From Daucus carota subsp. sativus (Eukaryota > Streptophyta > Magnoliopsida > Apiales > Apiaceae), in NCBI RefSeq assembly GCF_001625215.2, contig NC_030383.2:1004779-1068778 (forward strand): a DNA stretch of 64,000 nt, written 5' to 3'. Both the position numbers and the translations under genes were made by a program. Of the stretch, positions 7,261 to 57,393 are shown one piece after another (the stretch's first letter is position 1; the number at the start of each line of letters is the position of its first letter). The notes below the pieces were generated by a model, which was not told the origin of the DNA, searched no databases, and worked only from the letters and a program-made list of their open reading frames with translations.

Positions 7261-8629
7261 TTATGCTGCGATGAGCGATCCTTCATGTTCTTCTAAATCT
7301 TTTTAAGGTATAGTATTTAGATAATTTCTATTTCTATTACATCGCATAATTAATGAGACCGGTAACAGTCATCTAAAACTAGAACAATTTCTTTGATACG
7401 CCAACTAATTAAGTCAATGATATTTGCTTTATTAGTGAGGGCAGAAAAAAGGTCATCATGGAATATATGGGAATTTAAGGCTAAAATTTAGGAAAATTAA
7501 AAAAAACCATCTATGTTCCACTATGTTTGTTTCAACTCTCATTTCCAATTTTCGTTTGAAATACGGTTAACGTTGTATATCCTGTTACAATGATGATCGA
7601 AATGTTTTAGTACTTGAGGTTATATAAAGTTGCACCCTTTTTTGAAGAAATTTCGTAACCCGGATAATTTTGAAAAAAATCCAAAAATATAGTGATATTT
7701 TTTACTTTTATAAATGAAAATATTAAACCCCCTTTATATATTAGTAAAATTGATATATGATATTAAATTTCTTTTGAAAAATAAATTGTTTTTATAGAGT
7801 AAATTATGTTGTTATTTTCACAAAAGCAAAAATTATGTCTTGAATTTTGTTTGAGAGTGCTGTTAAAAATTATTGTATACCTAGGAATAGAAATGCTCTC
7901 GGAGAAATTCTTTGAATATTTACATATTTTGTGTTATAATAATAAAAATATATATATTAATAAGATTTGATAGGATAAAAGTTTTAAAAAATTCAAAAAT
8001 ATGAGACCAGTTTTTAGTATAAACTGCGGTAATTTTTTAGTATTAGAACATCTACAATTATGAAGAGGCCCTAACTAAAAAATTTAGTTGTACTAAAAAT
8101 AAAATTATAGAAAATCACATATTTGCTCCTTGTCTATAATTATAACTCAACTCTCATGAAAAGTTATATTTATCAATCTACTATCCAGAAGAAATCGATA
8201 AAAACATTACTCATCATTTATTACCATATTAAAATGATATATTTTTTTTTATAAAAAATTAAAATATTAAGCTTATCCTAATTCCCACCACCGTAAAAAT
8301 GGTAAAGTATGCATAATGCATGTGGACGCTAAATTAGAAAACATGACAACAATCGCAAATAAACAATTTTGGCTCTCATCATCAAAGGCCCCCGAGAGGG
8401 AAGGTATAATTTGTCACCAAGTAATGAATCATCGACTTAAATAACACAAGGATTCTTCTTCGGACACTACTAAAAACACTCTCTCTGTTTCTTCCTCCTT
8501 CCCATTTTTACAATAATCCAACTCTCTTTCAACAGAAGTTTCGAGATAAATAAATATCGAGAAGTGTATTCAACTGGGATTTTAATAAGACTTTGATAAG
8601 ACGGAGGTTTTTTTGTTTTACAGAGAGAT
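7261..8629. other. intergenic DNA and probable promoter of the GT47 gene
   Basis: AT-rich DNA without a recognisable gene. The last 200 bases before 8630 are richer in CT (for example CTCTCTCTGTTTCTTCCTCC near 8480) and look like promoter plus 5' leader. I could not place a convincing TATA box. Confidence 0.4.
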
Positions 8630-11220
8630 ATGTGGGATTTCCATAGAAGACGCTTGACTACAATTCTGATTCTGCTGCCATTGGTTTTGATTTCAGTGAT
8701 TGCTTGTAAATTTTCGTTTTCTTCTCCGTTGGCTTCGGGGAAGAAATCTTCAGTTTCGAGTTTCTTTGATTCTGGCAAATATCAGAGTGAAAAGCCCTTG
8801 AATTTAGTTGAAGGAGTTGATGATTTTCATGCCCAAAATCCAGCTTCCTCTCCTAATTCTGTAAGTTAGATATAATAATTTTATATGCATGAGGGAAAAT
8901 ATTATTTTGTTTATAATTTTGGTTTATGCATGTGGAATTCTTTGAACAGCCTTTGGATTCTGCGTACATCTCACCCTCTCCCGAGCCCGTGAGTGAAATA
9001 TTATACTGGGTATGTTTGGTTTGATTTGGCTTTCCGGTGTTTTCACTCTTTGTATTTGGAAAGCACTGATAGTCAAACTTTTTTTCTTCAACAGGATGAC
9101 CAGCCTCAAGAAGAAAAAATTTTGCAAGGAAACAACAGTTTTGTGTACATCTCACCATCTCCAGAGCCTGCAAGTGATATCTACCGGGTATGTTTGGTTT
9201 GATTTGGGTTTACGGCGTTTTCTTTGCTTTTGGAAAGTACTGGTATTCCAACCTTTTTTTTAACAGGATGATCAGAATGGAAAGGAAGTTATTCTCCAAT
9301 CAAACAGTAGTTCTATCCCTGTGAATGGAAGTATTGATTCTAATCATGAAACACAAACTATAAGGATATATAGTAGGCTAGAAAAGATCGAGGCCCGATT
9401 GGTGAAAGTTCGACAAGCCATAAAAGAAGCTGTTCCCAATCGAAATATGACCTCTTTACATGAAGATCCAGATTATGTGCCCCGTGGTCCTATGTACAGG
9501 AACGCCAATGCTTTTCATAGGTACTGGATTTTTATATGCACATATAAAACTTATCGTTGGTAATTAAGCATAATGACTATGATAGAAACGTATTTAGGTG
9601 ATTATCCGAATTTCTGTAATTGTTGAGAAAAATTAAACATAAGTTCTATAAAAGTTATAACTTATAACGTGATGAGAATTGTCTTGTACACTGTTTTTTT
9701 CCCAGCACACAACGTAGTGGCATTTGTATGAGGTGGACATGCCGTCAGGCATGGGGCCAATTTGTGTTGTTTCTGACGGTGTTTTAGACCAGTCGGCTGT
9801 TCTGCAGTGGAGTCAATTTAAGTCAGTATATTCTTGCAGGCCGCAGTTGGTTACATGGGGTTGATTTTCTTGTAATATTGTTTAGTGTTAAATTTCAGTG
9901 TTGTGTCGTAGCTATAACCCCGGACCTTATTGGACTAAGGCATCCTTACTTTTCATTTGATCTGAGTCGTAGAGTTTGCTTGCCAGGCATATAAGTCAAA
10001 AAAGTTCTTCAAAATCTATGTGTACTATCTTTTCTTTTAACCTATAAATGGGCTGCAACTTGCAAATTGGTAAACCAGATCTTGACATTGTTTTTATTTA
10101 TTCAGGAGCTATCTGGAAATGGAGAAATTATTTAAGATATATGTTTATAAGGAAGGTGACCGACCTCTGTTCCACAACGGGATCTGCAAAAGTATATACT
10201 CTACAGAGGGAAGATTGATTAGTGAACTTGAAAAAGGCACTTTGTACAAAACAGAGGATCCAGACGAAGCACTTGTATATTTTTTGCCATTTAGTGTGGT
10301 TATGCTGGTTGAATACCTCCATATACCTGGAGCAAGGGAAATACATGCCATTGGAAACACCGTCGCTGATTACATTAAAGTAATATCTCAGAAGCATCGT
10401 TTCTGGAACCGAAGCCAGGGTGCAGATCATTTCATGGCTTCTTGTCATGATTGGGTAAGTATATTTTGATAAATATACAAATCTGACTGTATTCGTCATT
10501 TACTGCTTTCTAGAAACTAATTTAAATTTAATAGATGGCTGGTTATACATTTCTCAGGCGCCTCGTACAACTTCTTACGTGCCCAACTTATTCAACAATG
10601 CCATACGGGTTCTATGTAATGCTAATACCTCAGAAGGATTTAATCCGTCAAAAGATGTATCGTTGCCAGAGATCAATCTGTTGACAGGTGAAATCACAGG
10701 CCTTGTTGGCGGTCCCTCTCCTTCAAAACGTCCAATTCTTGCTTTCTTTGCTGGTCGTCTACATGGACACATAAGGTACCTTCTCTTAGAGCAATGGAAA
10801 GAAAAGGACAGCGACGTCCAAGTTTATGAAAGTCTCCCAAAAGGAGTATCATATCAAACAATGCTTAGAAGAAGTAGATTTTGCTTGTGTCCAAGTGGAT
10901 ATGAGGTTGCTAGTCCGCGAGTAGTTGAGGCCATATATTCGGAATGCATTCCAGTTCTGATATCTGATGGGTACATTCCACCTTTAAGCGATGTTCTAAA
11001 TTGGAAGACATTCTCTGTTCAAGTGGATGTCAAGGACATTGCTAATATCAAAACAATATTGATGAGCATATCTCAACGTCAGTACCTGAGAATGCATCGG
11101 AGAATAAAGCAAGTTCAAAGGCATTTTGTGATGAATCCAAGTCCAAAGAGATTCGATTTTTTTCATATGATGATTCATTCGATTTGGCTACGGAGGTTGA
11201 ATGTTCGGATTGAGGACTGA
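8630..11220 (+). CDS. GT47 exostosin-family glycosyltransferase
   Basis: Six exons (8630-8860, 8950-9009, 9095-9187, 9267-9520, 10106-10454, 10558-11220) join in frame to 549 residues. It is a type II Golgi protein: a short basic N-terminus, a single hydrophobic anchor at about residues 8-27, a variable stem to about 190, then an exostosin (GT47) catalytic domain from about 215 to 530. Landmarks are YVPRGPMYRN, KLFKIYVYKEGDRPLFHNG, YFLPFSVVMLVEYL, RVLCNANTSEGFNPSKDVSL and RFCLCPSGYEVASPRVVEA (residues 435-455 approximately). These match plant 'probable glycosyltransferase At5g03795/At3g07620'-like proteins, which are thought to build cell-wall polysaccharides; donor and acceptor are not known. 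Stem exons 2 to 4 look like copies of one another (see findings). The catalytic part appears intact. Confidence 0.95.
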
Positions 11221-30391: not shown

Positions 30392-32561
30392 TTAGCCAGC
30401 AGAAGGAAGGGTTTCTGGTTCTGGAACGACCTCTGCTCCCGAGTAAGCTGGCTTCTGCTTGCCATCAAATCCCCACAATTTAGCTGATTTTACATCATCC
30501 TTGGCCATTAACCTCGAGAATTCCTCATGGTCATAGTTCAATGTGGTTTTGCCACCAAACTCAGTTGGAAGATTTTCCATGTCAAAATATGTTTTCATCA
30601 GTTCCACGCTATCTTTATTCTTTGGATACACAAATTTTACCTTGTGAAATGTTTTGGTATCCAAGAAGTACTTGACAACCTGCACAAATGACATTGCACT
30701 TATATGAGTAATGGTGCTCTGAGGCTTCAAAAAAACCTCTGCATAGTCGGATACAAAGATCCCAAGAGGATATGATAGTGGTATAAGACATTGCTGAAAG
30801 ATAAATACAGCTGGTCTAACATTGAGCAATTAAACACAATAATCGCATCACACAAGAGAAAAGGTATACCATATACCTCTGGATGCATATGGTACACCTT
30901 AAAGGGTTAAATAAGTGTATCGGCCAACTCAAAAACAAGTATGGTTCTGTTTAGTAGATATAAATTATAAAAAGAAGTATACACACCTTCCAGAATGCTT
31001 CAAAAATTCTCGGGGGATTGTACAAAAATGCTACAGCAAGTATCTCAGGGTAGTAGTTTTGGAGTATGCTTATAGTATCTTTAGCAGATTTAACCGGCAC
31101 ACTAGTACTGAAAGACCATCCAGTGAAGTCTATTAACCATGCCATTTGTTCTTGACCTTCTGGAAGATTAAGTATAGCATTCTCTATCAGATACACGAGA
31201 TGTCTCATCTGGTTGTCTATAGATGTTGTATTCTGTAACATGCAAAATTAATACGCATCACTGAAGGTTTCTTGAAACCAATCAGTTAAAATAATGATAA
31301 CTGCAATTAAATAAAACCATCACCTGCAATCCTGGTTTTAGTATAAGAACAGTTCTCCCATAACGGTCATGGAAATCTGCTCTAAACAATTTTCCTGTTT
31401 CGCCTTCACCAGCAACTTCATGCTGCATTGAAAAGCTTACATGGTCAGAGAACAATTATTAATCAAATAATAATTTTATCCGGAGCGTTCGTAGAAATTA
31501 TGAATGAAATGGAACATATTTAGTGACAGTCATTTAACGAACAATGTTATATTGAAAAAGATATGCTGGTTACAGTGTCATAAATTTAATTAGATTACTT
31601 AATAACAATAACCAAACAATAAGAGGCAGGTGCAAGAAACTGTTATCATCTACAAAAAAATTCCCCGATAATGATATTAATTACTATAATCATGTCCTTC
31701 AGATGTGAACTATTTTCACATCCGACGGAACATTCCCTACTTACCCAGCGGATTTCTTCAGGCTTGTAGGTTGATCTCCAAATTAGAGTCTCTTCCAGCA
31801 TCTTCTTTGCTTTTTCTACATTCCAGTTACGAGCTTCCAAGAATCTCCTCAAGCAAGCATCTGTGCAGTATCGTAAACTGCGCCCTGATAGTGGGCCAAG
31901 AGCAACTCTCAGCTCATTGATCTGCAGAGAACAGAGGCAAAAGTCAGGAAGTGGTTGCACACAATCATCTTGGTAGCTATTTGTAACAAATGGTAGCACT
32001 ATATGCCATATCTGGCCACACGTTGGAATATGTGGTCTTCTTTATCAGACTATAGAATATAAACCTCAGACTGTCCTCATAGGATAATCTCCAATGCAAC
32101 TGCATAATCCTCTTTATGTACTATTTTGATATATTAATTCCTCTAACCAACCATATAAGATTATAACATGCACAAATTTGGTGGTGTAACACCATTCAAA
32201 GTAACAGTAGTTCCCCAAATTTGTGCTTAGAATTTGACCAGGGTTGTGACGTTACAGTCAAAACTGGCTTCAACCAAATTATGAATTCTTTAAATTAAAA
32301 AAATTGTATTAGTCAAAATATCATTTGGTGACTTTTTACATGCACATTAAAGCAAGTGAAACATTGCAAGGCACCCATCAAATATATATATATAAAGGAC
32401 AAACTACTTTTATACATGTTAAGTATCATTTCCCTATCCATCAAATAGAAGTCGATGCAGATCTGCATGTTGACCTAATGCTTGATTGATATTACCTTAA
32501 CCTCAGGCAGCGGCTCTTTATTCTCCTGTGATGGCTGAGAACCACTCCAACGGCGAAACAT
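30392..32561 (-). CDS. SEC14/CRAL-TRIO phosphatidylinositol-transfer-like protein
   Basis: Five coding exons on the minus strand, 32561-32496, 31921-31745, 31422-31324, 31232-30987 and 30679-30392, are all phase 0 and give 291 residues. Residues 23-81 are the CRAL-TRIO N domain (LRYCTDACLRRFLEARNWNV, MLEETLIWRSTYKPEEIRW). Residues 82-250 are the lipid-binding lobe (RADFHDRYGRTVLILKPG, WLIDFTGWSFSTS, YYPEILAVAFLYNPP, KVKFVYPKN, LPTEFGGKT). It closely resembles the short Arabidopsis Sec14p-like proteins such as At1g75170, which bind and transfer phosphatidylinositol or related lipids at membranes. No GOLD or nodulin domain is attached. A CT-rich leader exon ending at 33580 and a roughly 1-kb leader intron precede the ATG. 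Confidence 0.93.
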
Positions 32562-36965: not shown

Positions 36966-38807
36966 ATGAGCCAGATGAGTTCAATTTCGAGAACCCACCG
37001 GAAAATATGGCTTTTTTGGACGACGCCGGCGATAAGAGACGGTGGGTTGGTGAGAATGTACAGTGGTCATCCAAGAAAAAAAGCGGATTTGAAGAAGTTA
37101 AGACCAATGATTGTAGAAAGAATTAAAAATAGAGCTAAAGATTATCCAATTAAAGCAATGATTCCTGTTGCTGAAGATGTGCTTAAAGCTAGAGTTCTTC
37201 TCATTCAAGGGGTCTCTACGCTTCTGAATTTTGTTCCTGTCTGGACTTGCAAGTAATCTCTCTCTCTCTCTCTCTCCCTCTCTCCCTCTCCCCTCCCCCC
37301 CTCTCTCCCCTGTCTCTCTCTCTTCCCCCTTCCCTCTCTCTGTGTTGTATATTCAAGCTATGGGTTTGATTATGAACTAATACTCTGTTATGGGTTTTGA
37401 TTATAAAGAGATAATCTTTGTTTAGACTGGAAAGTTAGCTTCATTTATGCTTTTATGATGTGTGAAATGAGCCTTAGGTTGATAGTATTGTTCATGTAAG
37501 ACCTATAATTTTAGGAACATAGTCCAATATGTAATGGAGCATCAAGAGACGTTCGAATTTGATCTGTTCTTGCAGTGCTTAGTAGTTTTTTTTATATTGT
37601 GTGAAATGCGCCTAAAGCTTAGTTGAGTACTTCATATATGAAAGCAGATTGTTGTATTTTTTCAGAAATTAAAATTTTGAGTTAGTATCATAGGAAAGTA
37701 TAAGTATTATTTTACCCAATTCAAATAGTGCATAATACTTTAACAAGAACAAAAGCAGAAGAAGCTGTAAGAGTGAAAAAATGTCGGAAGAGTGAAAATA
37801 ATGTGGGAGTGCATATTTGTTCTATGATGAGATTTGCGAAAACAACGAGCAGGGATGAGAATAATTCGTATACATATTTTTTATGAGTAGTAGGTTCGAG
37901 CTCTAGTTCACATGGGTAGGAATGGAATGGAGGAGAGGTAGAAAATTTAAACTTTATATATCTAAATTAATCAAACTTCATTCTGTAAGCGTAAGTGAAT
38001 CTTTATCAAAATATTTTTGTAGTTGGATCAGTATTGTCTGAGTTTTTATTTCTTGGCAGGTTCTGTCCAGAAGTATATATCGGCGAGGAAGGACATTTAA
38101 TAAAGACTTGTGGTGGTTATAGACACCGTGCCAAGAATCAACATCATGAGTGGGTTAAAGGGAGCTTGAATGATATTATTGTTCCTGTGAAAACATTTCA
38201 TCTTAAGAACATGTTCCAAAATGTAATTGAGCATCAAGAGAGGTTCGATTTTGACCGTGTTTCTGCAGTAGTTGAATTGTGCTTACAGGCAGGTGCTTTT
38301 CTGTATGATGAAAGGTTATATTCAAGGCACTTGAATTTTGATACAGATGTGAATTCGTTTGTTGGAGATGCATACATGTGTGAAGAGGATCAGAGGTTTG
38401 TAGCAAGAGGAACATTGAGTGCTTGGGAGACTGTCAAGTCTGGAGTCCAGAAGTTGTTATTGGCTTATCCTACAAAGGTCTGTGAACATTGTTCAGAAGT
38501 TCATGTGGGGCCATCTGGTCACAGAGCACGACTTTGTGGTGTGTTTAAATACCAGAGATGGCGGGGGACTCATTTCTGGAAAAAAGCAGAAGTAGATGAT
38601 TTGGTGCCTCCAAATATCGTGTGGTTTCGTAGACCTCAAGATCCACCTCTCCTCCTTAACACATGTCGAGAGTTTTATGGGCATGCCCCAGCTGTAGTGG
38701 ATCTATGCGTAAAAGCTGGTGCTATTCCACCATCAAAATACTTGTGTATGATGAAAATGCAAGGGCTAGCAGCACCATTATCAGCACCTGCTGTTGTGGT
38801 GGATTAA
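36966..38807 (+). CDS. APO4: APO4-like organelle RNA-splicing factor
   Basis: Two exons, 36966-37252 and 38060-38807, encode 344 residues. An in-frame ATG at 36903 could add 21 more; I prefer 36966 because the resulting length is close to known APO4 and begins a Ser/Arg-rich presequence. The body has RKKADLKKLRPMIVERI, KARVLLIQGVSTLL and two APO domains. Each domain has the same C-x2-C-x9-H-x4-C pattern: C95, C98, H108, C113 and C237, C240, H250, C255. Other anchors are HEWVKGSLND and VPPNIVWFRRPQDPPLLL. APO proteins bind group II introns and help splice them; APO4 is mitochondrial. All eight ligand residues are present. A decayed copy of part of exon 2 lies in the intron. Confidence 0.93.
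37257..37345 (+). repeat. (CT)n tract at the start of the APO4-like intron
   Basis: A CT/CCCT pyrimidine run of about 90 bp starts four bases inside the intron, directly after GTAAT. Confidence 0.95.
37478..37577 (+). repeat. decayed copy of APO4 exon 2 inside the intron
   Basis: Intron bases 37516-37576 align with exon bases 38208-38269 at roughly 80% by eye. Shared blocks are GAGCATCAAGAGA, GTTCGA, TTTGA and TTGCAGT/CTGCAGT. The match extends weakly to 37478 (ATAGTATTGTTCATGT against ATATTATTGTTCCTGT). No reading frame survives, so it is a relic of a local duplication, not an alternative exon. Confidence 0.7.
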
Positions 38808-51866: not shown

Positions 51867-53876
51867 ATGGTCTATTTTCTTTCGGTTTCAAGCTTCTTTC
51901 TTCTCTTCCTCCAACTTACTTCCCATCTTGCTAGTAAGTGCATCATACAGAAGTTCAAATTACAACTTTTTTATTAATGGAAGAATAAAAAATTTGACAT
52001 TTTTCGTGTTATGTTCTGCTCAATTTCTGGCAGGACTTATTTCTGCTGCGGGACAGAAAATGTGTTCGTAAAATTTTTCTGAAATGTAAACTTAAATTTT
52101 GTAATTACTCTGTTTTGCAGATTCGGAACCATACCTCGGAATAAACTACGGACAAGTCGCTAACAACCTCCCACCGCCATCTGCTGTCGCGAGGCTACTC
52201 CAATCCACCTCAATCCAAAAAGTCCGATTATTCGGTGCTGATGCAACCATAATCCAGTCACTAGCCAACACTAACATCGAGATCGCTATCGGAGCATCCA
52301 ACACCGACATTCCAGCACTTGCAGCAGACTCGAACTTTGTGAAATCATGGATTAATTCAAACATCATTCCATTCTATCCATCCAGCAAAATAACAACAGT
52401 TAATGTTGGTAACGAGATCATGAGCTCAACAGACCGTAGTTTAATGTACTTGCTTTTAAAAGCTATGCAAAATGTCCAAAATGCCCTTACTGAGGCCATG
52501 CTTGGCGGGAAAATTAAGGTCACAACGGTACATTCACTTGCGATTTTGAAAAGGTCTGATCCACCGTCGAGTGGGAGGTTTGATCCGACGGTGGAGGATT
52601 TGTTGAAGGGATTATTGGAGTTTAATAATGCGACTGGGTCGGGTTTCAGTTTTAATCCATATCCGTTTTTTGCGTATCAAAGTGACCCGAGACCTGAAAC
52701 TCTGGCTTTTTGCTTGTTTCAACCAAATTCAGGCCGACTTGATCCGGGTACTGGCATCAAGTATACTAACATGTTTGATGCTCAGGTACACAGATTTTAA
52801 CTCATTGTCATTTGTTTTCCAAAAATGAGCAACGGTCAGATGTTTCAAATTATCACATATAATTTATGAATATTAAGACGGTGTATTCAACTGAGATTTT
52901 ATTGGATTATATGAACATTAAATTATGTGTAGGTGGATGCTGTACGATCTGCGCTGAACGCTATGGGATTCAAAGGCGTAGAAATCGTTATTTCTGAGAC
53001 AGGATGGCCATACAGAGGAGATAGTAATCAAGTCGGAACAAGCATTGAGAATGCCAAGGCTTACAATGGCAACTTGATTGCGCATTTGAGGTCTATGGTA
53101 GGAACTCCGCTGATGCCTGGAAAATCAGTCGATACGTATTTGTTTGCATTGTTCGATGAGGACCTGAAACCCGGACCAGCCTCTGAGCGGTCATTTGGCC
53201 TTTTTAAGCCTGATCTCACTGTCACTTATGATGTTATGCTTACTAAGGCTAGCCAGGTGAGTATTACTCTCTCCGTTTTTGAATATCTGTCTTTTGACTT
53301 TTTAGCATTATTGACTGTGTTTTCCTTTTGATCTTGTTTATAGTTTGGTATTGTCAATTGAACTCGATTTCTGGTACTCTTTTGGTAATACTGATTGTTC
53401 CTATTTTTAGACGTCGCTGACACCAGAGACGCCATCAAGTCCAACAAGGCCTTCGACAATGCCAGCCAGTCCATCAGGCACGCCAAAAAGCGGCGCCTGG
53501 TGTGTGCCTAAGACAGGTGTTTCCGATGCCCAACTGCAGGAAAATCTGGATTATGCTTGTGCATTTGGGATCGACTGCACCCCGATCCAACCAGCTGGAG
53601 CTTGTTTTGAACCAAACACCCTGGCTGCTCACGCAACATACGCTATGAATCTTCTTTACCAAACTGCAGGGAAGAACCCATGGAACTGTGATTTCTCACA
53701 GACAGCCATGCTTTCGTCTATTGATCCTAGTAAGTCTCTCATTATAGTCCGAATAAGTCCATTTCGCAACAAGGTAGTTAAAAAATAATAACAGCCCCTT
53801 CATTCCGTAACATTTTCTTAAAATTTCGGATTTTTTAGGTTACAATGGATGCACTTTTCCTGGTGGGAATGCCTAA
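51867..53876 (+). CDS. GH17 glucan endo-1,3-beta-glucosidase with X8 (CBM43) domain
   Basis: Five exons (51867-51933, 52121-52785, 52933-53256, 53411-53729, 53839-53876) give 470 residues. Residues 1-22 are a signal peptide (MVYFLSVSSFFLLFLQLTSH). Residues 25-350 are the GH17 barrel: YLGINYGQVANNLP, the acid/base Glu121 in VNVGNE, and the nucleophile Glu266 in ISETGWPYRG. A Ser/Thr/Pro linker (353-378) leads to an X8 domain with all six cysteines (C383, C402, C408, C417, C445, C463). It ends just after X8 with no GPI-anchor tail, so it should be secreted to the wall. It hydrolyses beta-1,3-glucan (callose); X8 binds it. Members act in plasmodesmal callose turnover, pollen or defence; the exact role is not readable. 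Confidence 0.95.
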
Positions 53877-56184: not shown

Positions 56185-57198
56185 TTACCTATCAGTGTCG
56201 GAAGCTGTAGTCGATTGTGCAAGAGATTCAAGAATAAGGTCAAGAGATAGCAAAGACATCTTAGCAATCTCTGAAACAGCAGCATTTCGGACAGAAGGAG
56301 CATCACTACTCAAATCCTCATACGCAGCTTCAAACGCGCGTTGCCAGAATTTGGGCAACCGAATTGTCTTGCTATGAGTATACACATCCCACATATGCCT
56401 CACCACTTTCTCCCTCTCCTCTACTTCCTGCAATCAATCACACACACAAAAACAATTTCATAAAAATTTCAGACCAATCAAACTTACATTTCAATACTCA
56501 CGCAAAGTCTAATTCTCGAATCCTAAACATTTTATACCAAAAGAACAAGAATCCATTGTACTACCAAGAATCACAATCACAACTCTAGATACCCATTCTC
56601 TCATTACCTAGACTCGAGCCATCGATCATACATATCAATAGACTACCTTAAAATCAAGATCACAATCCATTAGCCTACTATGAATCACAATTGTAACTCC
56701 AAAATTCTAAATAACTCATACACTAGCTCCCCAATAAAACTCGAACCTTTGATGACAGACGGGTATCCACTGGACTACAATACCAGAAATCACAAACTAC
56801 AATTCAAAACCATATAAAAATCATCACACTCCCAAACTCCAATCACAACAAACATCAAACACGAAAAACCCATCAAACACAAATTTTCAAAAAATCACAG
56901 TACTTACAAGGATATCAAGATCAGAGTGCAGAGGAGAGTCATACTCATCAGCCAAAGCTCCAGCAGAAGACCAGTTAAGAGTCACAGAGCCAGTAAACAT
57001 GGACCAAAAAGCAAGAACAAGAATAACAACCAAAGCCCACAATTTATACCTCGTTTTTCCAAACACAGAGGAGTTACTATTGTTGCAAGTATCAGATGAA
57101 CATGAGCCAGAGGATTCACGTTTGAGGATCAGGCTTGTGGCTGAGGGTTTTTTGTAGGTGAGGTCTTGATCTTCTGTGTAGAAGTCTAGAGCTTTCAT
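56185..57198 (-). CDS. small single-pass membrane protein, possibly DUF1195 family
   Basis: Two exons on the minus strand, 57198-56908 and 56427-56185, give 177 residues. The N-terminal half is hydrophilic and Ser-rich, then a single hydrophobic helix (YKLWALVVILVLAFWSMFTG, about residues 51-70) is followed by an extracytoplasmic or lumenal part. The C-terminal half has REKVVRHMWDVYTHSKTIRL, FWQRAFEAAYEDLSSD and VRNAAVSEIAKMSLLSLDLI. I recall this pattern from a plant-only family of unknown function, probably DUF1195, but cannot check it. The reading frame stops at TAA in the sequence AG|GTAACC, which also resembles a splice donor, so a further short exon to the left is possible. Confidence 0.8.
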
Positions 57199-57393
57199 TA
57201 TGAAGATGCAGGGGATTGTTTAGAGTTAAAGGGGTTTAAGTGTAGTTATGGATGTGATGAAGGTGATATGGTGCGGGAGGGAAAGCAGAGTGGTGGTAAT
57301 CAAGAGTATTTATTATTGGAGGCGGGGGTTGGCGATAGCTACTTTTAAAATAGTGCTGATTTGTATCCTATACTTAGATTTACTGTAATAATA
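57199..57393 (-). promoter_or_regulatory. leader and promoter of the small membrane protein gene
   Basis: Non-coding sequence directly upstream of the ATG at 57198, less AT-rich than the flanking DNA. No clear TATA box. Confidence 0.3.

Follow-up and report, generated by a model that had tools for sequence, protein, structure and literature searches.

A predicted GT47 glycosyltransferase gene of Daucus carota subsp. sativus, which would encode a cell-wall enzyme, contains two abutting, similar units, each comprising a whole intron and with break points located inside exons, an arrangement indicative of an internal tandem duplication. We estimate at about 87% the probability that the two units derive from a single in-frame tandem duplication of approximately 180 bp within this gene, accompanied by a mild lengthening of the enzyme stem. 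Such an event would illustrate how an in-frame exon plus an intron can be gained in one step, both break points lying within exons.

Predicted gene and protein

The window, i.e., the whole stretch of DNA that was analyzed, is 64,000 nucleotides long. Within it, the gene model was predicted from the sequence, on the basis of the longest open frame and a PF03016 match:

8630..11220, + strand: predicted GT47 gene, six exons
8630..8860, + strand: exon 1 (predicted)
8950..9009, + strand: exon 2 (predicted), 60 nt
9010..9094, + strand: intron 2, 85 nt, phase 0, with TTTGATTTG at 9020
9095..9187, + strand: exon 3, 31 codons, 93 nt, a chimera in which the DDQ half comes from copy A and the YISPSPEP half from copy B
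9188..9266, + strand: intron 3, 79 nt, phase 0, with TTTGATTTG at 9198; the same as intron 2 at 69 of 79 aligned sites, with three gaps
9267..9520, + strand: exon 4 (predicted), 254 nt
10106..10454, + strand: exon 5 (predicted)
10558..11220, + strand: exon 6 (predicted), stop included

Of the combinations of splice sites that we tried around the expected exon borders, the one with the longest open frame gives a predicted protein of 549 amino acids; seven near alternative models gave products that were 1 to 7 residues shorter. All five introns have GT and AG at their ends, and introns 1 to 3 are in phase 0. Residues 219 to 500 matched PF03016 (Exostosin GT47 domain) with an E value of 1.8e-61 and 208.5 bits, compared to a gathering score of 33.4, which places the protein in the GT47/exostosin family. 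Furthermore, the five PDB sequences matched by the protein were all exostosin-1 and -2 (best E value, 2.5e-12). A second GT47 gene within the window was considered and rejected, as tblastn returned the gene's own exons and two further matches with E values of 2.2 and 2.8. Scans of viral and prokaryote contig collections with exon 6 gave 8 and 62 pattern matches, respectively, none of which was confirmed; plant genes are not expected in these collections.

Among 19-residue windows, hydropathy peaked in those that begin at residues 8 to 12 (maximum of 2.54 in the window from residue 12), and the repeat region of the protein was hydrophilic, with a mean hydropathy of -0.82 and 67% of P, E, S, Q, D, N, G, or K residues. 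As far as hydropathy goes, this profile would be compatible with a type II Golgi enzyme that has a stem region. Each copy of the repeat contributes one SPSP motif (residues 85 and 117) and one N-glycosylation sequon (residues 110 and 141).

Structure of the repeat and duplication model

The repeat consists of the following elements:

8958..9138, + strand: copy A, i.e., the 3' part of exon 2, intron 2, and the 5' (DDQ) part of exon 3
9139..9310, + strand: copy B, i.e., the 3' (YISPSPEP) part of exon 3, intron 3, and the 5' (DDQ) part of exon 4
9139..9142, + strand: TTTT, where the two copies join; both outer ends are TTCT (8958-8961 and 9311-9314)

Aligning the exons and introns against each other, the check that had been proposed beforehand, confirmed that the repeat is real. 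Local alignment of positions 8880-9150 with positions 9090-9420, two stretches that have 61 bases in common, gave a score of 141; when both stretches were shuffled 300 times with their dinucleotides preserved, the mean score was 19.3 and the highest was 28. The best alignment paired 8958-9103 with 9139-9275 and thus corresponded to the repeat rather than to the 61-base overlap. An ungapped repeat search recovered three pieces of 41, 42, and 39 nt with 90, 81, and 82% identity at spacings of 178, 181, and 174, respectively; Tandem Repeats Finder, run with a minimum score of 30, missed the array.

The likenesses described in the original prediction could be read directly. Exons 2 and 3 (8950-9009 and 9095-9187) each encode YISPSPEP, introns 2 and 3 both begin with GTATGTTTGGTTTGATTTGG, contain TTTGGAAAG, and end in AACAG, and exons 3 and 4 both start with GATGA(C/T)CAG. 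Directly after the intron ends, exon 3 encodes DDQPQEEKILQGNNS and exon 4 encodes DDQNGKEVILQSNSS. Since the likeness continues there in codon register, copy A ends where copy B starts. The repeated unit is therefore not an exon plus an intron, as had been proposed, but an intron together with parts of both flanking exons, its boundaries lying inside exons, and exon 3 is consequently a chimera of the two copies. TTCT at the outer ends and TTTT at the junction may represent microhomology; at 4 nt, chance is possible as well.

The number of copies, given beforehand as two to three, had to be reduced to two, as our search did not yield a convincing third one. The best score was 24 in 8400-8957 (maximum of 33 in 200 single-base shuffles) and 18 in 9312-10600 (maximum of 32 in 200 shuffles). 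When the end of exon 1 and intron 1 (8790-8949) were searched alone, the score of 24 compared to a maximum of 23 in 200 shuffles, which leaves a slight doubt over an older, decayed copy. In the remaining window, with 8901-9400 masked, the two strands gave raw scores of 31 and 28. We read none of these candidates as a convincing third copy.

According to the model that we favor, the segment of about 180 bp that was duplicated would have comprised an existing phase-0 intron, the end of the preceding exon, and the start of the following one. Because both break points lie inside exons and the codon frame is kept, the outcome would be one additional intron and one additional chimeric exon of 31 codons, with inherited splice sites. 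The direction of events would thus be from one copy to two, and exon 3 is presumably included in the normal transcript; its skipping would restore what was probably the junction before the duplication. The protein would have become 31 residues longer, the addition falling within a hydrophilic, probably flexible stem that separates the putative N-terminal membrane anchor from the catalytic domain. PF03016 begins at residue 219, past the insert, and the GT47 domain is left untouched. This is in agreement with the original prediction of an in-frame tandem lengthening that spares the catalytic domain. Indeed, the insert lies after the hydrophobic segment at the N terminus and ahead of the GT47 domain. 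The expected effect on the enzyme would be a mildly longer stem with unchanged catalysis.

It had also been claimed that all copies keep functional splice sites. GT and AG are indeed kept, and function is less certain, as CTGAT at position -28 of intron 2, which we take to resemble a branch site, is replaced by CTGGT at the same place of intron 3. Exon skipping, as stated beforehand, would be neutral with respect to the frame: since introns 1 to 3 are all in phase 0, the frame survives the loss of either exon 2 (60 nt) or exon 3 (93 nt), and also the loss of the two together. Exon 4 (254 nt) is not removable in frame. We also observed a second in-frame AG nine bases past both duplicated acceptors (GATGACCAG and GATGATCAG), giving exon starts at 9104 and 9276. 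Use of this second AG (9095-9104 and 9267-9276) could toggle three residues, DDQ.

Divergence between the copies and competing readings

Introns 2 and 3 differ by 10 substitutions at 79 aligned sites and by three gaps. The exon parts differ at 25 of 90 sites in a codon alignment from which three codons at an indel (two in copy A, one in copy B) were omitted. Synonymous differences amount to about 8.5 of 18.2 sites and replacement differences to about 16.5 of 71.8 (dS of 0.73 and dN of 0.27), as expected if both copies were translated. The two halves of the unit behave differently: YISPSPEP shows three silent changes and no replacement, whereas in the DDQ half, aligned without gaps, 16 of 45 bases are different, with about 11.5 replacement differences. 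Compared to the introns, higher divergence was found for the silent exon sites (Fisher P of 0.001 or 0.004, depending on rounding), the third codon positions (10 of 30; P = 0.024), all exon sites (P = 0.022), and the DDQ half (P = 0.005; replacement differences alone, P = 0.02). First and second codon positions showed no significant excess over the introns (P = 0.24 and 0.09). This contrast comes from several tests on few sites and depends on the ungapped codon alignment; in a gapped alignment, there were 10 differences at 41 sites of the DDQ half and 8 at 45 sites of the YISP half, and the contrast with the introns appears weaker. The lower divergence of the introns, if real, would point to either intron constraint or local gene conversion.

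At an assumed rate of 7e-9 substitutions per site per year, the intron divergence of 0.139 corresponds to 9.9 million years, and rates of 1.5e-8 to 3e-9 give 4.6 to 23 million years. We rejected a single date for the duplication because this estimate conflicts with the dS of 0.73, which gives several times more. Indeed, with 10 of 79 intron sites against 25 of 90 exon sites differing, no single date fits the unit.

The strongest competitor, to which we give roughly one chance in four, is a duplication of greater age, with subsequent homogenization of the two introns by local gene conversion. The excess of silent exon differences over intron differences argues for it, and a short conversion tract would account for introns that are alike next to DDQ halves that are not. 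However, the YISPSPEP halves, which adjoin the introns, retain three silent changes in eight codons, so that the tract would need to stop near the intron, and few sites are involved.

According to a second and clearly less probable reading, the duplicated intron would be the part under selection: the doubling of a motif for intron-mediated enhancement would have raised expression, the added stem residues being a by-product. The low intron divergence is in line with this, and so is the perfect agreement of introns 2 and 3 over their first 20 bases, which has a chance of 0.04 with donor and acceptor held and of 0.02 otherwise. Within these 20 bases lies TTTGATTTG, which matches TTNGATYTG, an expression-enhancing intron motif of Arabidopsis (PMC6760150). 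The two matches are located 390 and 568 nt downstream of the ATG in genomic distance. When the introns were shuffled, the motif arose in 70 of 5,000 (intron 2) and 45 of 5,000 (intron 3) dinucleotide shuffles and in 79 and 99 of 5,000 single-base shuffles, respectively; as the introns are copies, their two matches count as one event. Further sense-strand matches are present in intron 4 (9956-9964) and exon 6 (11178-11186), and 4 of the 12 matches in the window fall on the sense strand of the GT47 gene. The Poisson probability is 6e-5 for four hits in the gene and 1e-3 for three, both calculated after the fact and uncorrected. Introns 2 and 3, which carry TTNGATYTG close to the gene's 5' end, are putative enhancing introns.

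In Arabidopsis reporters, engineered copies of the motif raised mRNA by approximately 1.5-fold each, additively, near the transcription start (within about 1 kb) (PMC6760150). The Arabidopsis introns and introns 2 and 3 of the GT47 gene are thus alike in carrying the same 9-nt motif near the 5' end of a gene. However, the tested introns held 3 to 20 motifs, whereas introns 2 and 3 of the GT47 gene carry a single natural motif each. Furthermore, the motif was spotted post hoc, its total in the window is ordinary (12 versus 10.1 expected, a number reached by 33 of 100 shuffles), and the intron contrast depends on few sites and on the codon alignment. It also speaks against this reading that the distance to the transcription start has been described as not very informative for expression, although in the same report genes with the motif in their first introns had a higher mean expression (effect size, 0.37) (PMC8157754). 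If the constraint on the introns is real, the locus would offer a natural test of whether a doubled enhancement motif alters expression.

Slightly less probable still is that the two copies form a cassette or a mutually exclusive exon pair, giving stems of differing length. Exons 2 and 3 could be removed in frame, a second in-frame AG follows both acceptors, and the branch-site-like CTGAT of intron 2 is not found at the same place in intron 3. However, the donors and acceptors of the two introns look alike, so nothing in these splice sites demands skipping. Finally, an assembly artifact or chance similarity is very improbable, given the alignment score of 141 versus at most 28 in shuffles and copies that are too diverged, in introns and exons alike, for one allele assembled twice.

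Relation to known systems and other genes in the window

A tandem duplication of the kind proposed has precedents in plants. In Arabidopsis TOUCH3, tandem duplications of an entire intron with exon sequence on either side have been described (Knowles and McLysaght 2006, via PMC4974935), and segmental duplications including entire introns have also been noted (Gao and Lynch 2009, via PMC4974935). The copying of an entire intron along with adjoining pieces of exon is therefore an already known kind of event, of which the GT47 locus is one more case. TOUCH3 and the GT47 locus are alike in that an existing whole intron was multiplied, internally and in tandem, along with exon sequence on both sides; they differ in the number of duplications (two versus one) and in the gene family. 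Similarly, the potato RdRp gene (PMC4974935) is a plant gene with a tandem duplication across an intron-exon border and inherited splicing signals. However, only one border was crossed in that gene and an exonic donor gave rise to a new intron, whereas the intron of the GT47 locus was duplicated in full, including its own donor and acceptor.

In tobacco GNTI, a stem motif is described as required for complex formation (PMC10715278). A protein-level effect of the 31-residue insert is thus possible, and by analogy the added repeat could also matter for the enzyme itself. In cotton, the exon number of GT47 genes ranges from 1 to 14 and is below five in most of them, and the passages of PMC6749837 dealing with these exon counts make no mention of stem duplications. 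Among the papers listed in literature searches, whose coverage excluded most subscription papers, such a duplication in a GT47 gene was not reported in titles or abstract openings.

A family scan was applied to 10 of 30 frames listed for the window, and 6 of these 10 had a family. The following frames were observed apart from the GT47 gene:

30392..32041, - strand: CRAL_TRIO and CRAL_TRIO_N frames
37995..38807, + strand: APO RNA-binding frame (PF05634, two stretches)
52105..53788, + strand: glycosyl hydrolase family 17 frame (PF00332), followed by an X8 frame (PF07983)
56887..57219, - strand: DUF1195 frame (PF06708)

The frames at 30392-32041 probably belong to one Sec14-like gene and those at 52105-53788 probably to one glucan endo-1,3-beta-glucosidase gene.
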